From positions 1-37,791 of the forward strand of contig CAIKAN010000088.1 in the NCBI GenBank assembly GCA_903825415.1: a stretch of 37,791 nt of DNA, read 5' to 3'. The notes under the pieces are model-generated. The model did no database searches. It was given only the letters and a program-made list of their open reading frames with translations, and was not told where the DNA came from. The position numbers and the translations under genes were made by a program. The stretch comes from an uncultured bacterium. Its GTDB lineage: Bacteria > Patescibacteriota > Minisyncoccia > Phycocordibacterales > PALSA-1337. Shown piece after piece: positions 740-37,791 of this stretch (position 1 is its first letter; every line of letters begins with the position of its first letter).

Positions 740-1519
740 TTAATTCAGCTGCTCATTCAGACGCCTCGCTTCTTCCCATGCGAGCTCGTATATCTTCTTC
801 ATGACATCAGCGATCTCCTCGCTCTCTATTATGATCCCTAGCTTCTCTCGCCAGGAAGCGATCATGACCTTATTATCGTAGATGTTGATTTCAGGAGTAA
901 AACTGAATCTATCGTGAGGAACCAGAAGGCTCACTCGCTTTTCGTCGCTATCCAAAGCAGAACGTTCGTGTGCCAAAGGCGTCTCAGGAAAGATTGCACG
1001 TATATGGATATTCTTGGCAGCCCTTCTCTTGAAATACTCTGGAAAATAATTGGGGATGCCATCATTCACATCTTCAACAGATGCATATGCCCGAATCGTC
1101 TCAGAACTAGTGAGAGTATCTTCATAGACATGTTTCAACCCTTCTGTCCCTTCGTAGAATTTGATTTTGGGACGGTTTTGTACGGCATAGACACGCAGCA
1201 GCTGAGGGACAAAATTCTCAGCTCGTTTGACACGATCTGAAGCCTCTTCGGCCTTTTTCTTGTAATGAGCGATCAAGCTTTCTGGCGGTTCTGCAGCATA
1301 TTCAGTTTTTGGTTCCTTGCCAGACAGAGTGACGATCCCCTTGTTTATAAGAGAATCCAAAATCTCATATCCGGTCGTTCGATTTATCCCAGCTTTTCTT
1401 GAAATCTGCGACACTGTGCCCTTGCCTAGTTCTAATAAGGCAAGATATACCGTTGATTCTTTCTCGCTAAAATCCAAGGCTCGAAGCGTTGATTGTAGTT
1501 CACCGTTTTCTTTCATCAT
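740..1519 (-). CDS. TrmB-family transcriptional regulator
   Basis: 259 aa. Residues about 10-75 form a winged helix-turn-helix of the TrmB type (LRALDFSEKESTVYLALLEL, then a recognition-helix segment around INRTTGYEILDSLINKG). A short coiled region follows (about 85-105), then a C-terminal sensor-like domain (about 115-250). TrmB proteins are mostly archaeal sugar-responsive regulators but are common in CPR genomes; the ligand here cannot be inferred. The gene opens a minus-strand unit with the ExoIII gene 15 nt downstream, and it is divergent from the radical SAM gene. A consensus sigma70 promoter ends just before the ATG, so the mRNA is probably leaderless. Two consecutive ATGs (1519 and 1516) are possible starts. 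Confidence 0.88.
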   Translation of the reverse strand: MMKENGELQSTLRALDFSEKESTVYLALLELGKGTVSQISRKAGINRTTGYEILDSLINKGIVTLSGKEPKTEYAAEPPESLIAHYKKKAEEASDRVKRAENFVPQLLRVYAVQNRPKIKFYEGTEGLKHVYEDTLTSSETIRAYASVEDVNDGIPNYFPEYFKRRAAKNIHIRAIFPETPLAHERSALDSDEKRVSLLVPHDRFSFTPEINIYDNKVMIASWREKLGIIIESEEIADVMKKIYELAWEEARRLNEQLN

Positions 1520-1633: not shown

Positions 1634-1662
1634 TTGACACTACACTGTAATAATGTTATTCT
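1634..1662 (+). promoter_or_regulatory. Promoter of the radical SAM gene
   Basis: TTGACA (1634-1639), 17-bp spacer, TATTCT (1657-1662). The predicted start near 1669 leaves a leader of about 195 nt before the ATG at 1864. A second TTGACA at 1685-1690 has only a poor -10 partner (TAGACC). Confidence 0.6.
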
Positions 1663-1710
1663 CGGAGCAGAAAAGACAGATTCTTTGACAGATGATCCGA
1701 ATAATCATAG

Positions 1711-1841
1711 ACCTTACATCTTCTCGATAGATGGAAGGTGGGCAAAAACCATATGGGCCCACCGTTCATCTCTCGAGTGAGACATATGCTATGTCATTCC
1801 GCTCGCGCGGAATTAGAAAATCACAAGAACGCTGATTTTCT
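1711..1841 (+). promoter_or_regulatory. Structured 5' leader with five consecutive stem-loops
   Basis: Hairpins read from the sequence: P1 ACCTTACATCT (1711-1721) with AGATGGAAGGT (1729-1739), one A-G mismatch; P2 GGTGGGC (1737-1743) with GCCCACC (1757-1763); P3 GACATA (1781-1786) with TATGTC (1790-1795); P4 ATTCCGC (1796-1802) with GCGGAAT (1807-1813), tetraloop TCGC; P5 AGAAAATCA (1815-1823) with TGATTTTCT (1833-1841). P1 and P2 share GGT at 1737-1739 and cannot both fully form, and GGAAT at 1856-1860 could pair with ATTCC of P4. This suggests a switching leader or attenuator. It matches no riboswitch class I recognise. The frame is open through it from 1738, so an N-terminal extension of the enzyme is the alternative reading. 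Confidence 0.55.
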
Positions 1842-1863
1842 TCATAAAATAGATGGAATTATC

Positions 1864-3111
1864 ATGAAAAATCAATTTCCCAATGTCCCTACTTCCTTGC
1901 CTTCGAAGAGCGAGATCCCTTCCGGATTCAGTCTGATGGTTCACAAATTCAGTTACCCAAGCGATAGGCTCAACGAAAGGGTTGTGATAAGGGGTGAGCC
2001 CGTAAAGAAGCTTTTGACTCTCGATCTGAACATCCCTGAATCGGAATTTGCTAAAAAGGTGAACATCGCGCCTCCGGGAGACGCAAAGAGCGCGTTTGTG
2101 CGTAGCTACCCGTGCCCTCATCGGTGTCCAGGCTGCTTCAATAATGCGGAACTTCACAATCCCGTATTAACCCTCGAGGAAATCTGGAAGATCGTTGATC
2201 AAGCCCAAGAGCTCGGTCTAGAATCGGTGAAGTTTCTGGGGCCTGGAGAATTATTGGCCAATCCAGAGGTCTTTACTATCCTCGACGAATTTGAGCGTCG
2301 TGGTATCGTGATCGGTATATTTTCTAAGGGAGCCATTCTTGGAAACGACGACCTATCTCGCCATTACCACGGGATCGATTCGGACGAATTCGTTCGAAGA
2401 CTTGCTTTGTATTCAAATACGACTTTTTTGATCGGTGGCCGATCGTTCGACTCCCGATTCGAAAACAGGTTCGTTCCTCGAAATGGACGACAAATCAAGA
2501 AAGGCTTCGATTATCATCTGTCTCGCAATCTTGCGATAGAGAGGCTATGTCGCGCTGGGATGAATGCCGATCTTTTTAGGCAAAGGCTAGCGCTGCTCTG
2601 TAATCCGGTGACCGCTGAAAACCTGAATTGTATCGAGGAGATATACAGGTGGGGAACAGAAAGGAACATCCCAGTGTATCTTCCACCTACCATGGTCAGC
2701 GGCAAAGGTCACAGCTTGGTGAAAGGCGCATCCGCCGGAAAATTCGAGGATGATTACATCGACCTTGCAGTTAGGGTGTACTCTTGGGCAATTGAGCGGG
2801 GAGTTATGACCCTCGAACGATTCGAACAAGAAGGACCGCATCCTTATATCGGAGTCGCGCCATGCAATCAGCTCACGCACGGCCTCTACATTCATTACGA
2901 TGGGGCCGTGTGGCGGTGTCCTGGGAATGATACGCCAGATTTCATTGTTAATGAGAATGTCCGTAATGCGCCCTTGATTGACATCTGGAAGGGAAGCAAG
3001 AATTATCCTATCAATGAATTCAATAACGGTTGCGTTAAGGACGGAATCTCCCTGCCCCTGAGGTTCTATGAGGAGGTCAGGAAGAGGGTCACTCATCGAC
3101 TGGTCCCGTAG
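1864..3111 (+). CDS. Radical SAM enzyme of unknown specificity
   Basis: 415 aa from this start. The SAM-binding iron-sulfur motif CPHRCPGC (CX3CX2C) lies at residues 84-91, followed by the usual glycine-rich partner region (VKFLGPGELL) and a TIM-barrel-like middle. The C-terminal third holds further cysteines (APCNQ, WRCPGND, NNGCV) in a pattern resembling SPASM/twitch auxiliary cluster domains, and the phrase IHYDGAVWRCPG is typical of such C-termini. These enzymes modify peptides, proteins or small molecules by radical chemistry; I cannot name the substrate and see no adjacent precursor peptide. Starts at 1738 (GTG) and 1753 (ATG, with AGGTGGG upstream) are in frame, but they cover the hairpin leader and give an unconvincing N-terminus, so 1864 is preferred. 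The gene is monocistronic, with its own promoter and terminator. Confidence 0.8.
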   Translation: MKNQFPNVPTSLPSKSEIPSGFSLMVHKFSYPSDRLNERVVIRGEPVKKLLTLDLNIPESEFAKKVNIAPPGDAKSAFVRSYPCPHRCPGCFNNAELHNPVLTLEEIWKIVDQAQELGLESVKFLGPGELLANPEVFTILDEFERRGIVIGIFSKGAILGNDDLSRHYHGIDSDEFVRRLALYSNTTFLIGGRSFDSRFENRFVPRNGRQIKKGFDYHLSRNLAIERLCRAGMNADLFRQRLALLCNPVTAENLNCIEEIYRWGTERNIPVYLPPTMVSGKGHSLVKGASAGKFEDDYIDLAVRVYSWAIERGVMTLERFEQEGPHPYIGVAPCNQLTHGLYIHYDGAVWRCPGNDTPDFIVNENVRNAPLIDIWKGSKNYPINEFNNGCVKDGISLPLRFYEEVRKRVTHRLVP

Positions 3112-3134: not shown

Positions 3135-3166
3135 AACTCTGCGCGTTTGCTTGCGCAGAGTTTTTT
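3135..3166 (+). terminator. Intrinsic terminator of the radical SAM gene
   Basis: Perfect 10-bp stem AACTCTGCGC (3135-3144) with GCGCAGAGTT (3153-3162), an 8-base loop, and a run of six T from 3161. It lies 24 nt after the stop, between convergent genes. Confidence 0.9.
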
Positions 3167-11813: not shown

Positions 11814-12965
11814 TTACGCCACCTCTACCTCCGCTGCCGCCACTTCCGCTCCACCCGTAGACTTGATATCTATCTTCCATCCCGTAAGCTTGGCGGCAAG
11901 ACGGACATTCTGACCACCCTTGCCGATTGCAAGACTTTGCTCATCTTCGGTGACTGTGACGATAGCGCGGTGAGCGGTCTCATCCAATTCAAGGCTAACG
12001 ACCTCGGCAGGAGAGAGAGCCTCTTCAATGAAGAGGGCAGGATCCTCATTCCATTCGACGATGTCGATCTTCTCGCCTGACAATTCGCTGGTGACAGTCG
12101 AGACGCGCACTCCGCGCTGGCCGACCATGGAACCGATGGGGTCGATATGGCTATCATGGGAAATCACGGCGACTTTCGATCGTGAACCGGCCTCGCGAGC
12201 AATAGCTTTGATTTCTACAACACCTTGGACGATTTCAGGCGCTTCTGTTTCAAAAAGCTTTGCCAAGAATTTGGGATGAGAGCGAGAAAGCTTTAGGACT
12301 ATGCCTTTTGGAGTCTCCTCAACGGCATAAAGGAAAGCACGGATACGGTCTCCAGTCTTCCAATGCTCGCTGGGAATCTGCTCCTCGTAAGGGATGATGC
12401 CGAGAGCACGGCCCATATTGACATAGACTACGCCTCTTTCGACGCGCTCTACTATTCCAGCGACAATGTCGCCTTCCTTCTGACCGAATTCAGCCATGAC
12501 CGAGACTTTCTCTGCTTCGCGGATCTTCTGGATGATGACCTGTTTGGCTGTTTGAGCGGCGATGCGTCCGAAATCAGCCTTGGCTTCGAGAGGGAAGACC
12601 AGCTCTTCTCCGACCTCTACATCGCGTTTGATCTTCCTAGCATCCTCTATGAGCATATGCTGCTCTGGATTGAAACGGATCTTGATATCTTCGACGGCGG
12701 TATTCTTGAGATCCTCATGATCCATTTCCTCATCGCCTTCCATGATGACCTGATCCTTGCTGACTACGACCTTGACCTGCCAGAATTCCACGCCGCCTGA
12801 AGCAGAGTCGAATGAAGCCCTGATGATTTGGCCTTTCTTGCCATACTCTTTCTTGTAAGCCGTGGCTAGAGCCATAGCGATAGCCTCCAGCGATTTCTCC
12901 TTTGGAATGCCGCGCTCTTCTTCTAACTGGTCTACTACGGAATTGATTACTTTGAGATCGAACAT
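11814..12965 (-). CDS. nusA: Transcription termination/antitermination factor NusA
   Basis: 383 aa, the short form without the C-terminal acidic repeats of E. coli NusA. The N-terminal RNA polymerase-binding domain is at about 1-125, the S1 domain at about 130-200 (GDIVAGIVERVERGVVYVNM), and the KH1/KH2 domains at about 225-370, with the KH signatures DPIGSMVGQRGVRVSTV and IGKGGQNVRLAAKL. It ends in an Ala/Glu/Val-rich tail. NusA binds the elongating polymerase and nascent RNA hairpins. Upstream is a 75-nt leader with a GC hairpin and no clear Shine-Dalgarno sequence. It is not next to rimP/infB here, unlike the common nusA operon. Confidence 0.97.
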   Translation of the reverse strand: MFDLKVINSVVDQLEEERGIPKEKSLEAIAMALATAYKKEYGKKGQIIRASFDSASGGVEFWQVKVVVSKDQVIMEGDEEMDHEDLKNTAVEDIKIRFNPEQHMLIEDARKIKRDVEVGEELVFPLEAKADFGRIAAQTAKQVIIQKIREAEKVSVMAEFGQKEGDIVAGIVERVERGVVYVNMGRALGIIPYEEQIPSEHWKTGDRIRAFLYAVEETPKGIVLKLSRSHPKFLAKLFETEAPEIVQGVVEIKAIAREAGSRSKVAVISHDSHIDPIGSMVGQRGVRVSTVTSELSGEKIDIVEWNEDPALFIEEALSPAEVVSLELDETAHRAIVTVTEDEQSLAIGKGGQNVRLAAKLTGWKIDIKSTGGAEVAAAEVEVA

Positions 12966-13014
12966 ATATTTAGTTGTTATTAAGTTTTTCTAATGCGTTC
13001 TGTTAAACGAACAA

Positions 13015-13032
13015 GTCCGCGAACGAGCGGAC
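13015..13032 (-). promoter_or_regulatory. GC hairpin in the nusA leader
   Basis: GTCCGC and GCGGAC form a 6-bp stem with a 6-base loop (GAACGA on the plus strand), about 50 nt upstream of the start codon. A target for NusA autoregulation is conceivable, since NusA binds hairpin-containing RNA; this is inference. Confidence 0.45.
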
Positions 13033-13045
13033 GACTGATGGAGGT

Positions 13046-13074
13046 ACTATAACATGGAATGAAAATAGATACAA
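13046..13074 (-). promoter_or_regulatory. Promoter of nusA
   Basis: Minus-strand TTGTAT (13074-13069), 17-bp spacer, TATAGT (13051-13046) preceded by TGT, giving an extended -10. The predicted start is near 13040. Confidence 0.6.
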
Positions 13075-13291
13075 GGAATTCTATGTGTAAAGATACGTCA
13101 ATAAACCTATATTTATAGCCATGATTCTGATTATACATTGACAATCAAGGTAATAGTATGCTAGTCTATTGATAGTTATTTGAAAAGAGCCGTCGTTCAT
13201 ATATTGAGGATTCACTGCAGAAATTAGCCCTTTATGCTCTTGGAAGAGTGAAAGAGAGGGTTGAAACTGTAGTGAAACACTGATCAATATT
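13075..13291 (+). other. Intergenic leader region of the 71-aa membrane protein gene
   Basis: No further gene. TTGACA at 13138-13143 with TAGTCT at 13162-13167 (18-bp spacer) is a possible promoter, which would give a leader of about 120 nt. No strong hairpin or ribosome-binding site was seen in it. Confidence 0.4.
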
Positions 13292-13507
13292 ATGAAATAC
13301 GCGAGGTTATGTATAACGACATCGGCAATTATTGCTTTTGTCTTGACCATGTTGGTCATGCCTTCATCCTTTGTTGGACCGTGGAAACGGATTACGGTCC
13401 TGCTTGGAATCCCGTTGTTCGTTCAATGCTTTGGGATGGGCATTGTTTACGCGATCAATGCTTGTCGGATGGACAACAAGGATGAAGATGCGTGGCGTTC
13501 GGTGTGA
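13292..13507 (+). CDS. Small two-helix membrane protein, unknown function
   Basis: 71 aa. Two predicted transmembrane segments, about residues 6-26 (LCITTSAIIAFVLTMLVMPS) and 34-57 (ITVLLGIPLFVQCFGMGIVY), with a short loop, then a charged tail DNKDEDAW. No family recognised. The reading is supported by a strong intrinsic terminator 20 nt after the stop and by a candidate promoter upstream. The segment is more GC-balanced than the flanking intergenic DNA. TGA is the stop. Confidence 0.6.
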   Translation: MKYARLCITTSAIIAFVLTMLVMPSSFVGPWKRITVLLGIPLFVQCFGMGIVYAINACRMDNKDEDAWRSV

Positions 13508-13527
13508 TGTGATCCATCGAACATTTT

Positions 13528-13557
13528 GGCGGTTGGCGAAAGCTGGCCGCCTTTTTT
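13528..13557 (+). terminator. Intrinsic terminator with GAAA tetraloop
   Basis: GGCGGTTGGC (13528-13537), loop GAAA, GCTGGCCGCC (13542-13551) and six T. The ten-pair stem includes G-T pairs and the loop is a stable GNRA tetraloop. Confidence 0.92.
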
Positions 13558-13575
13558 GTATGAATATAAGTTATG

Positions 13576-13594
13576 GGGGATGTGTCACATCCCC
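13576..13594. promoter_or_regulatory. 19-base palindrome upstream of the dinD-like gene
   Basis: GGGGATGTG and CACATCCCC face each other around a single T, a near-perfect palindrome with operator-like symmetry, about 70 bp before the dinD -10 box. It does not resemble a LexA box. Confidence 0.45.
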
Positions 13595-13662
13595 TTCACA
13601 TCCACTTTTGAATTAAAAAATGAATATTTTTTTTCACTAGATTGAATTTTCTATGAAAAGAG

Positions 13663-13696
13663 TACAATTCACAACAGAGAAGCCTGCCTCTCTGTT
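13663..13696 (+). promoter_or_regulatory. -10 box and initial hairpin of the dinD-like gene
   Basis: TACAAT (13663-13668) with an AT-rich partner around 13640. The transcript would begin with a hairpin AACAGAGA (13673-13680) / TCTCTGTT (13689-13696), which may protect the mRNA 5' end. Confidence 0.45.
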
Positions 13697-13720
13697 TAAA
13701 AGCCTAACAATTCAAGAAAT

Positions 13721-14392
13721 ATGAAAAATACTCCAAATGAAAATAGAGAATTGCAAACGATCGGTCCGAGCAAAGATTTCGAGTCTATCAAAAAGATCGA
13801 TGAGAATGGCGTGGAATATTGGACGGCGAGGGAGCTGATGCAAGTTCTGGGTTATTCGCTTTGGCAGAATTTCGAATCAGTTATAAAGAAAGCCCAGCAG
13901 AGTTGTGTAAATAGCAGACAGTTTCCTCAAGACCATTTTATTGATATCAATAAATTGACGCAAGTAGGCCACGGAATCGTTAGAAAATTTGACGATTACA
14001 AATTGGATAGGTTTGCTTGTTATCTGATTGCACAGAATGGTGATTCGAGTAAACCTGCTATTGCATTGGCGCAAACCTACTTTGCAATTCAAACCCGCAA
14101 ACAAGAGATACTCGATAATTTATCAGAAACAGAAAAGAGGATTATGAAACGACAAGAAGTATCAGATAAGAATAAGCTTCTTTTTAGCACAGCCAAATTG
14201 GCGGGCGTTTCAAACTTCGGACTTTTCAATGATGCTGGATATAAGGGCTTGTACACAATGTCTTTGAAGGATGTTGAAAATAAGAAGGGAATTACGAAAG
14301 GAGAATTGTTAGATCGTGCAGGGGGTGAAGAATTGGCGCAATACACAGTAATCCAATGCGGCTCTCTCTCTTATTTGATACAATGTGCGTAG
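13721..14392 (+). CDS. dinD: DinD-like (DNA-damage-inducible protein D) with truncated C-terminus
   Basis: 223 aa against about 275 in the family. Family hallmarks are the BRO/KilA-like N-terminus (YWTARELMQVLGYSLWQNFE), QNGDSSKPAIALAQTYFAIQ followed by TRKQE, and GYKGLYTMSLKDVENKKGIT. In E. coli DinD is SOS-induced and inhibits RecA activities. After GGEELA, where the family continues into a conserved Asn-Leu-Phe-Arg helix, the sequence changes to about 15 unrelated residues and stops. The final codons overlap the -10 box of pilB. A deletion between dinD and pilB explains this best, so the product may be inactive. A weak hairpin (AAAGGCA 14399-14405 / TGCCTTT 14417-14423, then T) may end the transcript. 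Confidence 0.8.
   Translation: MKNTPNENRELQTIGPSKDFESIKKIDENGVEYWTARELMQVLGYSLWQNFESVIKKAQQSCVNSRQFPQDHFIDINKLTQVGHGIVRKFDDYKLDRFACYLIAQNGDSSKPAIALAQTYFAIQTRKQEILDNLSETEKRIMKRQEVSDKNKLLFSTAKLAGVSNFGLFNDAGYKGLYTMSLKDVENKKGITKGELLDRAGGEELAQYTVIQCGSLSYLIQCA
14379..14384 (+). promoter_or_regulatory. -10 box of the pilus operon
   Basis: TACAAT inside the last codons of the dinD-like gene, about 67 nt before the pilB ATG. No good -35 box. The early leader contains the AAAGGCA/TGCCTTT hairpin, so pilB transcription from this site may be attenuated. Confidence 0.4.
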
Positions 14393-14450
14393 CAAACGAA
14401 AGGCATGCGTGACTTTTGCCTTTTTACTTTCCACTTTAAACTTTTTAATC

Positions 14451-16199
14451 ATGTCTGTTGAAGATAATCAGCTATATAAGTTCATTCTAGACTCCGGACT
14501 TGTGACCAGAGCGGATCTCGACGCCGCCAAGAAAGAGACCGAGAGCAGCAAAAAGCGCTTAGGCGATATCTTGGTGGCACAAGGCAAGATCACCGCTGAC
14601 AATCTGCGACGCATGTATGCCTATGTCCTCGGCATACCATTCGTCGATCTCAAGGGCAAGAAGGTCCCTTTCGAGGTTCTTTCCTTGATCCCAGAACCGA
14701 TCGCGCGCACCCACAATATCATCGCTTTCAAGAAAACCGATACGACTCTTGAAGTCGCCATGCTAGATGTCAATGATCTGTCTGCCATCGATTTCATAAA
14801 AAAGAAAGTCCAGCTGAAGATTTTGGCGCGATTGACTGATGTTGATTCCGTCAGAGAAGCGCTGGTGCAATATCAGAAAAGCTTGAAAGCTGAGTTCGGC
14901 GATATCATCCAGAAAGAGACCGAATCTATAAGGATGATCTCGGAGGAAAAAGGCGAAGCCGTTTCGGAAGAAGATCTCAAGAAGATCGCCGAGGGTTTGC
15001 CTGTCGTCCGTATCGTTGATACCTTGGTCAAGCATGCGATCCTTCAGAATGCATCCGATATCCATATAGAACCCATGGAAGAGCAGGTTCTCGTTCGCTA
15101 CCGCATTGACGGTCTCCTTCATGATGCCATGGTCTTACCACGACAGGCTGGAGCATCGATCACGGCGCGCATCAAGGTCTTGTCCAATCTAAAGCTCGAT
15201 GAAAAACGCTTGCCCCAAGACGGTCGCTTCAAAGTAGATGTCAATAATGAAAAAGTCTCATTCCGCGTATCCATCTTGCCGACGTATTATGGCGAAAAGA
15301 CCGTCATGCGTCTTTTGCGCGAGAATATAACGGGCTTTACTTTGGAGTACTTGAATTTCCATGGAGAAGGGCTTGAGCGCATCCATAAGGCTTTGAAACA
15401 ATCTACAGGTATGATCCTCACTACTGGTCCAACAGGATCCGGAAAGACGACTACTCTGTATACCATGTTGGACCTATTGAATCAGCCGGATGTGAATATC
15501 TCGACGATCGAAGACCCTATCGAATACCAGATGGCACGCATCAATCAGACACAAGTCAGGCCGGAGATCGGGTTCTCTTTCGCCCAAGGCATACGCACTT
15601 TGGTGCGTCAAGACCCAGATATAATCATGGTCGGTGAGATCCGCGACAATGAGACGGCGGCTTTGGCTGTGAATGCTTCGCTCACAGGCCACTTGGTGCT
15701 TTCTACTTTGCACACAAATTCGGCCGCAGGAGCCATACCTCGCCTTTTGGATATGAAAGTCGAGTCTTTCTTGTTGGTATCGACTCTGGATATCGTAATT
15801 GGTCAGCGCTTGGTGCGCCGTTTGACCGATAATAAAGAGCGATATTTCCTTTCGAAAGACGAATTCGCCCAACTGAAAAAGATCGTCGATCTGGACCACG
15901 TTCTAGACGCTTTGAAAGCAGACAAGGTCGTTAAGCCTAACGATACTTGGGATAAGATTCCGTTCTATAAGCCTGTGGCTTCCGGAGATGATGACGGATT
16001 CAAGTCTCGAGTCGGCATACATGAAGTGTTGCTCATGACCCAAAGCATCAAGGAGCTGATCATGAAGACTTCGACTACTTCGGCTATCGAAGATCAGGCC
16101 AAAAAAGAAGGCATGCTTACGATGCTTGAGGATGGCATATACAAGTGTGCTGCTGGAATGACGACGATAGAGGAGGTATTGAGGGTTATTACAGAGTAA
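14451..16199 (+). CDS. pilB: Type IV pilus assembly ATPase PilB
   Basis: 582 aa from MSVEDNQLYKF; the 22 codons before it are leader. The N-terminal GspE/PilB N-domain is at about 10-150, the ATPase core at about 190-560. Walker A GPTGSGKTTT is near residue 326, Asp box and Walker B follow (DPDIIMVGEIRDNETAALAV), then the His box SLTGHLVLSTLHTNSA. PilB hexamers power pilus extension at the inner membrane. The tetracysteine zinc ribbon usual in PilB/GspE is absent: the places where CxxC pairs are expected read RRLTDNKE and PVASGDDDGFKSR. It is the first gene of a pilus block with pilC and pilins. Confidence 0.96.
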   Translation: MSVEDNQLYKFILDSGLVTRADLDAAKKETESSKKRLGDILVAQGKITADNLRRMYAYVLGIPFVDLKGKKVPFEVLSLIPEPIARTHNIIAFKKTDTTLEVAMLDVNDLSAIDFIKKKVQLKILARLTDVDSVREALVQYQKSLKAEFGDIIQKETESIRMISEEKGEAVSEEDLKKIAEGLPVVRIVDTLVKHAILQNASDIHIEPMEEQVLVRYRIDGLLHDAMVLPRQAGASITARIKVLSNLKLDEKRLPQDGRFKVDVNNEKVSFRVSILPTYYGEKTVMRLLRENITGFTLEYLNFHGEGLERIHKALKQSTGMILTTGPTGSGKTTTLYTMLDLLNQPDVNISTIEDPIEYQMARINQTQVRPEIGFSFAQGIRTLVRQDPDIIMVGEIRDNETAALAVNASLTGHLVLSTLHTNSAAGAIPRLLDMKVESFLLVSTLDIVIGQRLVRRLTDNKERYFLSKDEFAQLKKIVDLDHVLDALKADKVVKPNDTWDKIPFYKPVASGDDDGFKSRVGIHEVLLMTQSIKELIMKTSTTSAIEDQAKKEGMLTMLEDGIYKCAAGMTTIEEVLRVITE

Positions 16200-19429: not shown

Positions 19430-21478
19430 ATGAAAAGAACCGAGTCTTATTTGATTTTGACATCCTTAACCATTCTAGTGATGGTCGGAGTGCTATTTGG
19501 CGCAAAATCATCGTATGCCATAACCTCATCAGAGGCACAATCGATCGTTAATTCCATGAATTTGACCAGCTCGCAGGCGACTGCGTTGGTGACATTCTTG
19601 AACCTGACTGATGGGCAGTCATCGGTCTTAAATACGGCTGTCACGGGTAATGTCAATCCTCCAATAATCATTCCTCCAGCAGTTGTTACAACGGGAGTCG
19701 TTTCTGCTGAGGTCTTTAATCTTAATGTCGATTATAGCCACTTTGCTTCAGAAGAGACCCAGAATCATTACACCTCGGTATATTCTTCTTCAGGGACAAA
19801 GCCTGTAGCGATCACAGTCTTTAAATTCAACGACAGCGCCACTATGACAGTTTCTCAGATCATTGCCAAGATCACTTCCTTGGGGTATCGTCCGGCTACA
19901 CTAGATGAGACATATGCTCTCGGTCAAGCAGGCAAGTGGAGCGTCGTCGGCTTGGGAACGCTACTGGGAAGCTATAATGTCTATCCTTATACAGTCAGCA
20001 ATGGTAAGAACGGTCTTTATAGCAGCGCAGGCCCATTTTCGATGCAAGCATATAGGTTCGCGGCGGTGAATACTTCAGGAACGCCGATAGTTGTATCTGC
20101 TACGGCCGTGACTACTACAACCGTCGGTTCTGCAGCGCTTCCCAAGCTCCTCAATGTTTCTGTGGATAGGAAATCATACGCTGTGGGAGATCAGGCGTAT
20201 ATATCATGGATAAAGACATTTGAATCCTCTTCTGATAGTTATATCAGGATATCCTTGTTCAGCAATAATAATGGATGGTCGGTGCCAGTGACCTCGGCAT
20301 CAAATTTGTCGTTAAACCAGACTTTGTTTAGCGCAAGGATCCCACAAAATGTCCCCATTATCGGGGGTGAATACTTGTTTGTTGTCGAGGTCTGTAATTC
20401 GAGCGGCGTTTGTAGTCAATATGATAGCAGTCACTTTACTATAGTAGCGGCAGCAACGAGCACGATACCAGCCGTGACTTCTTCATCTGTCTATACTCTG
20501 AATGTAAATTACGACAAATTCGATTCTGAAGAAGCTCAGAATCATTATGTTTCCGTCTATTCCGATTCCGGGACGAAATCAGCCGCTATCACTGTCTTCA
20601 AATTTAACGATAGCGCTACTATGACTGCTGATCAGATCAAAACTAAACTGGCCTCTCTCGGCTATCGTCCCGCGACTCTGGATGAGACATATGCTCTCGG
20701 TCAAGCAGGCAAGTGGAGCATAGTCGGCTTGGGAACGCTGCTTGGAAGCTATAATGTCTATCCTTATACCATGGTTGGTGTAGCCAATAATCTCTACAGC
20801 AGTGCCGGTCCGTTCGATACTCAGACATTTAGCTTTGCTGGAGTGAGCTTGGGTGCATCTGTTTCAAATCCAAATGTAACAATTGGTACATGTTCGACTG
20901 GACAGTCTTGGAATGGTTCTGCCTGTGCGTGGACGGTAGCGGTTGATAACTCTCAGCATTCCACTCTAGATGCAGCGAATGGCGACTTGGTGGGACAAAA
21001 TATAGTTCCGCCCGCTCAGACTCAGACTGTTTTAGCACAAAATACAGTAGCTACCTCGACGGTTGCTGTAATCTCTGTCCCTCCAGCCTCTACTGCCACC
21101 TCGGATACCTATACCTTGAATATAGATTATAGCCACTTTGCTTCTGAGGAGTCCCAATATCATTACACATCGGTTTATTCAAGCACGGGGACAAAATCTA
21201 CTGCGATCACAGTCTTCAAATTCACCGATAGCTCGACTATGACAGCCGATCAGGTCAAGACGAAATTAGCTTCTTTGGGCTACCGTCCAGCTACCTTAGA
21301 TGAGACATATGCTCTTGGTCAGGCTGGCAAGTGGAATGTCATCGGACTGGGAACATCCATGGGAAGCTTTAATGTATATCCGCTTACTCTCAATGGTGCT
21401 TCGACGGGCTTATATAATATAGGTGCCACAGCCGCGTATTCGACGCAGTTATACAAGTTCGCTGCAGTCAAGCTCTAG
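19430..21478 (+). CDS. Secreted protein with three copies of an unnamed domain
   Basis: 682 aa. The signal peptide ends near SSYA|I (residue 30). Three homologous domains lie at about 95-213, 355-472 and 561-680. Each contains a hydrophobic start (VYTLNVNYDKF-like), ITVFKFNDSATMT, LGYRPATLDETYALGQAGKW and NVYPYT. Between the first and second lies an Ig-like stretch (about 238-338), and between the second and third a Thr/Ser-rich linker with CSTGQSWNGSACAW. I do not recognise the domain by name; the GYRPAT motif recalls uncharacterised CPR proteins. It sits inside the pilus block, so a cell-surface or pilus-associated role is likely. No C-terminal anchor is visible. Confidence 0.82.
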   Translation: MKRTESYLILTSLTILVMVGVLFGAKSSYAITSSEAQSIVNSMNLTSSQATALVTFLNLTDGQSSVLNTAVTGNVNPPIIIPPAVVTTGVVSAEVFNLNVDYSHFASEETQNHYTSVYSSSGTKPVAITVFKFNDSATMTVSQIIAKITSLGYRPATLDETYALGQAGKWSVVGLGTLLGSYNVYPYTVSNGKNGLYSSAGPFSMQAYRFAAVNTSGTPIVVSATAVTTTTVGSAALPKLLNVSVDRKSYAVGDQAYISWIKTFESSSDSYIRISLFSNNNGWSVPVTSASNLSLNQTLFSARIPQNVPIIGGEYLFVVEVCNSSGVCSQYDSSHFTIVAAATSTIPAVTSSSVYTLNVNYDKFDSEEAQNHYVSVYSDSGTKSAAITVFKFNDSATMTADQIKTKLASLGYRPATLDETYALGQAGKWSIVGLGTLLGSYNVYPYTMVGVANNLYSSAGPFDTQTFSFAGVSLGASVSNPNVTIGTCSTGQSWNGSACAWTVAVDNSQHSTLDAANGDLVGQNIVPPAQTQTVLAQNTVATSTVAVISVPPASTATSDTYTLNIDYSHFASEESQYHYTSVYSSTGTKSTAITVFKFTDSSTMTADQVKTKLASLGYRPATLDETYALGQAGKWNVIGLGTSMGSFNVYPLTLNGASTGLYNIGATAAYSTQLYKFAAVKL

Positions 21479-36233: not shown

Positions 36234-37622
36234 TTAATTGCAGGCCAGACGTTCTTCCTGTGCGTACTGCAGAGCGGCATAGATGCCGGGATTGCGCATA
36301 CCCAAGATCTGAAGCGCTGCCAAGACCGCATTGGCCGGAGACAGCACAGTCATTGCGGGCACGCCGCTCGGAAGGCGTAGCGAGGACCAGATATCGTCTG
36401 GGAACCCCTTGAAGTCTGCTGGCACGTTGATGACAGGGACCGAAGTGTTGGCTGACAAGGTCGGTCCCGCGCCATTGCTCATCCCGATAAAGTCGATGAT
36501 GACCGCGTCCGGATGTTTCTGAACGGTTTCGCTGAGGATCTGTAGGCCTCGAACGGATTGTTTATGCATGGAACAAGTCACTTCGATCGCGGTGACTAGC
36601 GATCCGCCAACGAGCTCGTCCACACTCTTCGTCAGAGGGGATATGTCGTCCTTTTCCGACCCGCGCCATAAGATCAGGCTCTGAGAAGGGATCGAGAACT
36701 GTCCCGTCAAATCGGCAACAAGACGGAAGTTGGCAGTCACGGTGTTCATAGCCCCATCATTGCGGAAGAGCTGTTTGCAGATATAATTGCCTGCCGCATC
36801 GCGAAGCCTCCAGGAATCATTGTCGAGCACGTCGGCCAACCTCAGTCGACCATCGGGGTCGATGCCGAACTCGACTTTGAAGTCGCCCATTGTCTTCCTG
36901 AGGAGCTGCCAAGCTTTTTCGAGGATCAAGAAAGTCCTGCGGGCGATCTTTTCCATCTCCGGCATCATAGCTTCAATGCCAGAATCGCCGAAGAACTCCT
37001 CTTTTGACACAGTCATGAACGGCTTTTGGCCGATCAGGAAATTGACGGTGCCGTCTGAGTCACGGAGTTTCCGCTGTGCCTTGGTGAAGTGGGGTAGGTA
37101 GAATTCCACATTAGTTTCTGTGACGACGATGAGGGGGTCATCCATGGGAATGTCCTTACCTCTCCATTTCCGATCCTTGGTCTTGGCGAAGAATTCGACA
37201 CGGAGCCTCGGAAATCGTTCCCGCTTCACGATGTGAGGAAAACGTTCCAGGAATGAGCCGTCTGCTTCGCGGCGCACGACCACCTCCAAGTCGACCATCT
37301 TACACTTCGGTGCGATGAATCCGTGCATTGTCCAGTCTGGAACATCAGCAGGCTGATTCACGATCTGGCTCTCGAAAGCGACCGGTATGCCGCAGGCTCT
37401 CAGTAAGTTGAAGCTGTTGCAGGTTGTTCTATTGGCCAGCTCAGCCTTGCCTGTGATGATCTCCTGCTTATCACCATCACCTGCGGTGAGGTCATCCTTG
37501 GAGATGATATACACCTGGTTGGGGGCATCGACCACGTTGAAGATCTTTTTTGTCTTTCCCTCACAGGCTGGTGGTGCGGCGACTGATCTCCCTAGTATTG
37601 ATGTTGGGGTTGTTTCGTTCAT
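36234..37622 (-). CDS. Bifunctional SAICAR synthetase/AIR carboxylase-like fusion (PAICS-like)
   Basis: 462 aa from the ATG at 37622, preceded by AAAGG; GTG 37628 is an alternative start. Residues about 18-300 are PurC: CEGKTKKIF, FIAPKCKMVDLEVVVRREAD, VEFGIDPDGRL, LADVLDNDSWRL. Residues about 316-460 are PurE-like: GSEKD for the phosphate loop, VTCSMHK with the expected His, GMSNGAGPTLSANTSVPVIN, WSSLRLPSGVPAMTVLSP. The C-terminal placing of PurE behind PurC is that of animal PAICS. The enzyme would carry out two consecutive steps of purine synthesis. No other pur gene is near, and CPR genomes usually lack the pathway. The segment is more GC-rich than its neighbours. Transfer is likely. Confidence 0.88.
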   Translation of the reverse strand: MNETTPTSILGRSVAAPPACEGKTKKIFNVVDAPNQVYIISKDDLTAGDGDKQEIITGKAELANRTTCNSFNLLRACGIPVAFESQIVNQPADVPDWTMHGFIAPKCKMVDLEVVVRREADGSFLERFPHIVKRERFPRLRVEFFAKTKDRKWRGKDIPMDDPLIVVTETNVEFYLPHFTKAQRKLRDSDGTVNFLIGQKPFMTVSKEEFFGDSGIEAMMPEMEKIARRTFLILEKAWQLLRKTMGDFKVEFGIDPDGRLRLADVLDNDSWRLRDAAGNYICKQLFRNDGAMNTVTANFRLVADLTGQFSIPSQSLILWRGSEKDDISPLTKSVDELVGGSLVTAIEVTCSMHKQSVRGLQILSETVQKHPDAVIIDFIGMSNGAGPTLSANTSVPVINVPADFKGFPDDIWSSLRLPSGVPAMTVLSPANAVLAALQILGMRNPGIYAALQYAQEERLACN

Positions 37623-37791
37623 AGACACTGCCTTTCAATGTGCGCACGGCGATGGCCGTGTTTGCTATGGGAGTTATTCCCTTAGTCTGATTGAATACTA
37701 CTTGTTTTGAGCCATAAAAGGCAAGCAATATTTGTTCATATATTCTGGCCATGAATTATTGCAATATGGTAATAGCCATGTTAATGTATCC
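37623..37791 (-). other. Upstream region of the PurC-PurE gene
   Basis: A hairpin CACGGC / GCCGTG with a 4-base loop (37645-37660) lies 25-40 nt before the start, and AAAGG is placed about 9 nt before the ATG. No confident promoter or further gene is visible to the window end. Confidence 0.4.

Follow-up and report, generated by a model that had tools for sequence, protein, structure and literature searches.

Genetic organization of the locus

The window, i.e., the whole stretch of 37,791 nt analyzed here, is a contig from a 1.05 Mb assembly of a bacterium whose order is shared with Candidatus Taylorbacteria (Patescibacteria). It encodes a radical SAM/SPASM protein (rSAM) behind a sigma-70-type promoter and a long leader, and a TrmB-like transcriptional regulator on the opposite strand (Table 1). 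Transcription probably starts near position 1669, and strong TTGACA promoters occupy the equivalent position in most TrmB-linked loci. A preliminary description had correctly placed the element between a promoter and the start codon; it also presented the rSAM gene as an orphan, which has to be revised, since the TrmB-like gene is divergent from it and this pairing is kept in relatives. The intergenic DNA between TrmB and the divergent promoter harbors two conserved motifs, TTTCCACAAAAATATGTTGAT and ATATATTGATAAATATGG, present at 1520-1660 of the window and in loci L023-L036, which likely represent a TrmB-type operator.

Homologs of the rSAM protein (54-77% identical) begin at the same ATG. 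No solved structure similar in sequence to it was found, nor any relative in viral contigs, and a role in anti-phage defence was rejected, as viperin models match weakly (E 5e-4) and over the common radical SAM core only. The motif close to the 5' end of the leader resembles the boxA antitermination element; as TTCTTTGA it is shared with the leaders of L006, L014, L009, L031, and L040, and in the form GTTCTTTGA(AA) it recurs near the 5' ends of the leaders of L006, L014, L026, L031, and L040, as well as 3' of a hammerhead in L030. Elsewhere, the window encodes a fused PurC-PurE (36234-37628, minus strand), a 464-aa ORF that joins an N-terminal SAICAR synthetase domain to a C-terminal AIR carboxylase domain, and a secreted-looking protein of 682 aa (19430-21478, plus strand) with three near-identical repeats of ~100 aa (NVDYSHFASEE.QNHYTSVYS...).

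Table 1. Coordinates of the regulator gene, promoter, leader elements and rSAM gene in the window.
Feature	Position	Strand	Remarks
TrmB-like transcriptional regulator gene	740..1519	-	Divergent from rSAM; constant neighbour of the leader RNA
Promoter, sigma-70-type, TTGACA-17-TATTCT	1634..1662	+	10/12 consensus match, extended -10
TTCTTTGA motif, boxA-like	1681..1688	+	Near leader 5' end; function a guess
P0 5' strand, CAUCU	1717..1721	+	Covaries with the RBS strand
P1, long hairpin	1723..1777	+	A5 bulge, palindromic apical 8-mer CCAUAUGG; four double-sided pair changes (n = 4 members)
Junction linker UGA, P1/P2	1778..1780	+	Identical in 4/4 members
P2, small hairpin	1781..1795	+	Begins G[A/G]CAU; A-U to G-C change
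P3 hairpin, AUUCCGC/GCGGAAU	1796..1813	+	Covariation
P4 hairpin	1815..1841	+	Covariation
Single-stranded linker UCAUAAAAU, P4/P0	1842..1850	+	UCAYAAAAU in L004 and L014; UACACAAGAU in L006
P0 3' strand, AGAUG	1851..1855	+	Lies where the ribosome-binding site is expected, 8 nt 5' of the start codon
rSAM gene, 415 aa, start ATG 1864	1864..3111	+	First gene past the leader
Intrinsic terminator 3' of rSAM	3135..3162	+	Single-gene transcript

Architecture of the leader RNA

Positions 1711-1841 (131 nt) fold at -51.8 kcal/mol, compared to a mean of -28.6 for shuffled sequences (z -6.78), and none of 200 dinucleotide shuffles folded as well. The four perfect stems of 6-9 pairs reported previously are all present at 1737-1841, namely GGTGGGC/GCCCACC (7 bp, 1737-1743 with 1757-1763), GACATA/TATGTC (6 bp, 1781-1786 with 1790-1795), ATTCCGC/GCGGAAT (7 bp, 1796-1802 with 1807-1813), and AGAAAATCA/TGATTTTCT (9 bp, 1815-1823 with 1833-1841). 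The fifth hairpin of that description, ACCTT..AAGGT at 1711-1739, is possible on paper; it is not conserved in the relatives L004 and L006, and constitutes an alternative that competes with the long P1 hairpin. Furthermore, the hairpins are not tandem stem-loops. The leader is a single domain of ~150 nt with four hairpins (P1-P4) arranged round a junction, and a helix, P0, closes it in most members. As the interval 1711-1841 truncates P0 (1717-1721 with 1851-1855), the full element extends over ~1717-1866.

Three more genomes of the order contain homologous leaders, at loci L004 (Taylorbacteria, one contig with L005), L006, and L014; the rSAM proteins behind the clearly homologous leaders of L004 and L006 are 77 and 69% identical to that of the window, respectively. 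Although the four leaders are diverged, each single-sequence minimum free energy fold consists of P1-P4 plus a closing helix, and RNAalifold recovers P0, P1, P2, P3, and P4 from the three-sequence alignment. In each member, folding is better for the plus than for the minus strand. The closing helix of L006 is short and shifted (UGUGUA:UACACA), and its start region forms a local hairpin (GGUUG-GAAA-CAACC). In a longer fold of the window, which begins at the presumed transcription start and extends past the start codon, P0 forms only in part of the ensemble and an extra upstream strand competes for the ribosome-binding site (RBS). The unpaired UGA and UCAYAAAAU linkers are conserved among these four sequences. 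P1 apical loops carry self-complementary 8-mers, CCAUAUGG in the window (1749-1756) and CUCUAGAG in L004 and L006, and could in principle mediate loop-loop dimerisation; the P1 of L014 is a GAAA-capped stem with no self-complementary apical 8-mer.

Covariation and coding potential

The stems do covary, with compensatory changes in every helix. RNAalifold z-scores against column-shuffled alignments were -12.5 for three sequences and -10.6 for four. When the four sequences were aligned so as to fit the structure, with P3 of the window slipped by one column, 14 pairs had changed on both sides, compared to 6.3 in shuffles that ignore relatedness and 2-4 in slid registers, and pairing cells amounted to 91% vs. 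38-47% in slid registers; the covariation score of 0.43 (0.29 when shuffled) was reached by no shuffle. P0 itself reads CAUCU:AGAUG in the window, CACCU:GGGUG in L004, and CAUCU:GGAUG in L014.

Protein conservation does not extend into this segment. Since the rSAM protein starts at ATG 1864 in all homologs and stop codons lie upstream in frame in L004 and L006, the segment is not coding, and an N-terminal extension of rSAM from GTG 1738 was rejected on the same grounds. A conserved upstream ORF was likewise dismissed, the peptides not being conserved. No intrinsic terminator with a T run was detected on the plus strand of 1663-1863; a transcriptional attenuator, an architecture evoked in the preliminary description, is thus rejected. 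The view that the element fits no known class was borne out. Indeed, cmscan against Rfam 15 (4227 families) returned no family at the gathering threshold in the window or in L030, which holds the L014 leader, and a relaxed cutoff (E up to 10) applied to the L001, L004, and L006 leaders brought no relevant family and no ribozyme. By reading, the hammerhead core CUGAUGA...GAAA is absent from 1660-1866. Searches of the open-access literature on Patescibacteria, CPR, or Parcubacteria retrieved no account of a native riboswitch or structured leader RNA in these bacteria.

The leader is therefore a real, covarying and undescribed RNA, and the preliminary description is upheld in that it is a structured leader with covariation and no Rfam match; it is probably an undescribed gene-control RNA.

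Distribution and association with TrmB

A covariance model (R1) of three members retrieved the fourth, L014 in genome G114, with an E-value of 2.2e-10 among 397 genomes. This leader is divergent from a TrmB gene and precedes an unrelated protein of 98 aa without Pfam match. In each of the four members, the model ends on the start codon. The same RNA before the unrelated L014 gene indicates that the leader is independent of the downstream gene, and its attribution to the radical SAM gene in the preliminary description has to be abandoned. An RNA specific to rSAM is rejected for this reason and also because the rSAM homologs L002 and L007-L010 lack it. Homologs of rSAM are sporadic, with two strong matches among the window's family (53 genomes, own genome included) and 7 in the 397 of the order.

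The RNA has a narrow and patchy distribution. No further member was found in 284 more genomes of the class, in the other 52 of the family of the window, or in the other 12 of the family of L014, so that four distinct members are known. Weak model matches in G108 and G316 look like chance; the former lies near another divergent TrmB-like gene and its sequence lacks the hairpin set. The TrmB-like protein is encoded in 38 of the 397 genomes and is divergent from the RNA leader in all four genomes with the RNA, which is present in only four among 30 fetched TrmB loci. The genes divergent from TrmB vary widely and comprise small proteins of unknown function, substrate-binding-like proteins, and rSAM. 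On the TrmB tree, the presence of the RNA requires at least three changes, and L031, the sister of the L014 locus (TrmB 88% identical), has the same leader start, GGAAAGATACGGTAAGTTCTTTGAGA, without the RNA.

The location of the TrmB-RNA-rSAM unit also changes. It lies between nusA and pilB in L004; in the window, only a BRO-domain gene separates nusA (11814-12965) from pilB (14385-16199) and the unit is elsewhere, and its flanks in L006 are different again. The RNA is thus tied to the TrmB-type regulator and not to the radical SAM gene, and the TrmB-RNA unit looks like a cassette that moves and swaps its cargo. A covarying leader that stays constant while the downstream gene changes, with the regulator always alongside, suggests a portable control module. 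The nusA-pilB interval seems to be an insertion spot (window 11814-16199 vs. L004 356-6314), occupied in the window by the BRO-domain/PDC-S13-like gene (13721-14392).

Other structured elements were observed in TrmB-linked loci. The leader of L007, also seen as L032, and the TrmB-driven leader of L027 each carry an unrelated, very stable long hairpin (z -6.0 and -5.7, respectively), a strand of the former pairing with the Shine-Dalgarno and start region. Three TrmB-linked operons contain, 3' of their first cargo gene, a type III hammerhead-like ribozyme with a closed stem I, a core CUGAUGA-stem II-GAAA, and a pairing stem III; these are L030 (~2957-3011), L043 (3081-3135), and L035, the latter element lying in a region shared with L030. 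The Rfam E-values are 4e-5 for L043 and 1e-3 for L030, both scoring below the gathering threshold, and only 1.2 for L035.

Proposed mechanism and alternative explanations

Between 8 and 10 nt separate the 3' strand of P0 from the start codon in each of the four members. A second upstream strand can pair with bases at or next to the start in L004 (GGUUA:UAACC) and L014 (CAUAAG:CUUAUG), which together with the position and covariation of P0 points to translational control. Occlusion of positions -15 to +3, compared to 150 shuffled leaders, was in clear excess in L004 (1/150) and not clearly above shuffled leaders in the window (41/150), L006 (99/150), or L014 (25/150); the rows of L009 and L010 were excluded because of misplaced start codons. 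The unrelated leader of L007 also exhibited significant occlusion (5/150). General start-site occlusion was consequently discarded as a proof of mechanism, since among the RNA members the statistics support L004 only. The sequence AUAGAUGGAA is repeated at 1727-1736, in the 5' arm of P1, and at 1849-1858, in the RBS strand, so that an alternative pairing exists in the window. A switch by competing pairings may exist: two partners, the P1 arm and the RBS, are available to the 5' strand in the window, but the L004 strand covaries for P0, and among the RNA members occlusion is clear only there.

The reading that we favor, giving it about an even chance, is that of a novel leader RNA regulating translation in cis, and translational control appears to be the most likely mechanism. 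In the folded domain with P0 formed, the region just 5' of the start codon would be paired, and a condition opening P0 (a small molecule, a protein, or a change in upstream pairing) would release it. The TrmB-like regulator presumably controls the promoter, and the RNA would then add a second level of control on the gene of the cassette. Sensing of a ligand or a protein is plausible. The downstream genes, unrelated to one another, give no clue to a ligand. In a more specific and rather unlikely version, the RNA would be a novel class of ligand-sensing riboswitch, a five-way junction closed on the RBS and portable with the TrmB-type regulator. If true, unrelated accessory genes of Patescibacteria would be placed under one signal, with double control of promoter and translation.

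A lesser but serious possibility is a passive structured 5' UTR that neither senses nor switches, the role of its stable hairpins being limited to mRNA protection, half-life, or processing. Other TrmB-driven leaders of the order bear strong unrelated hairpins, so hairpins as such may suffice, and start occlusion is mostly at chance level; this explanation nevertheless leaves unaccounted for the conserved unpaired UGA and UCAYAAAAU linkers, as well as one multi-helix fold kept across four families at a constant spacing from the start codons of two unrelated genes. We consider it quite unlikely that the leader gives rise to a separate RNA (a small RNA acting in trans, or an element released by self-cleavage or by an RNase) that merely shares the cargo transcript. 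Its patchy, cassette-like distribution, its independence from the downstream gene, and the hammerhead-like ribozymes of three TrmB-linked operons (that of L014, between genes 1 and 2, and two more), which bring self-cleaving RNAs into this context, would suit such a product. On the contrary, the domain extends right up to the start codon, at a constant 8-10 nt from the 3' strand of P0, and includes the RBS strand, and the leader has neither a hammerhead core nor an Rfam ribozyme match up to E 10.

That the repeats act as DNA palindromes (operator sites or ends of mobile elements) is very unlikely given that all five helices lie 3' of the promoter, that G-U pairs are tolerated, that folding favors the plus strand in each member, and that the junction linkers are conserved, even if the minus strand folds well too, the model hits the P1 inverted repeat on either strand, and the cassette seems mobile. 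A short ORF begins at or near the same position of the P1 5' arm in all four members (MEGGQKPYG..., MDGGQKTLE..., VKGGCTLEP..., MNSVQVKAR...), and translation through this arm, from ATG 1731 (MEGGQK...) for instance, might control the gene by means of a leader peptide; we regard this as highly improbable, as neither the lengths (14 to ~33 aa) nor the sequences are conserved, L004 is out of frame, and the changes track base pairing rather than codons.

Comparison with known regulatory RNAs

The leader offers a concrete RNA for probing and ligand screening, and its cargo includes an uncharacterised radical SAM/SPASM enzyme. Like transcription attenuators, it presents several potentially competing hairpins from promoter to gene; unlike them, it possesses no terminator with a T run and no conserved leader peptide. 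Large structured leaders precede other radical SAM genes, such as the Moco RNA before moaA and the TPP riboswitch before thiC. The present leader is similarly large, structured, and upstream of a radical SAM gene, but gives no cmscan match to such families up to E 10. It shares with autogenous, protein-bound leaders a multi-hairpin structure overlapping the RBS of the first gene and differs from them in that one leader precedes two unrelated first genes. For this reason, simple autoregulation by the gene product cannot account for every member, and binding by the TrmB-like protein or by some other factor would be required. Compared to riboswitches, the controlled genes are mutually unrelated, members number only four, and the candidate has no Rfam match and no known ligand. 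Nevertheless, as in translational riboswitches and orphan riboswitch candidates, a structured 5' leader contains covarying helices at a junction; the unpaired linkers conserved among its four members may correspond to the core nucleotides of such RNAs, and the closing helix on the ribosome-binding site may serve as an expression platform.
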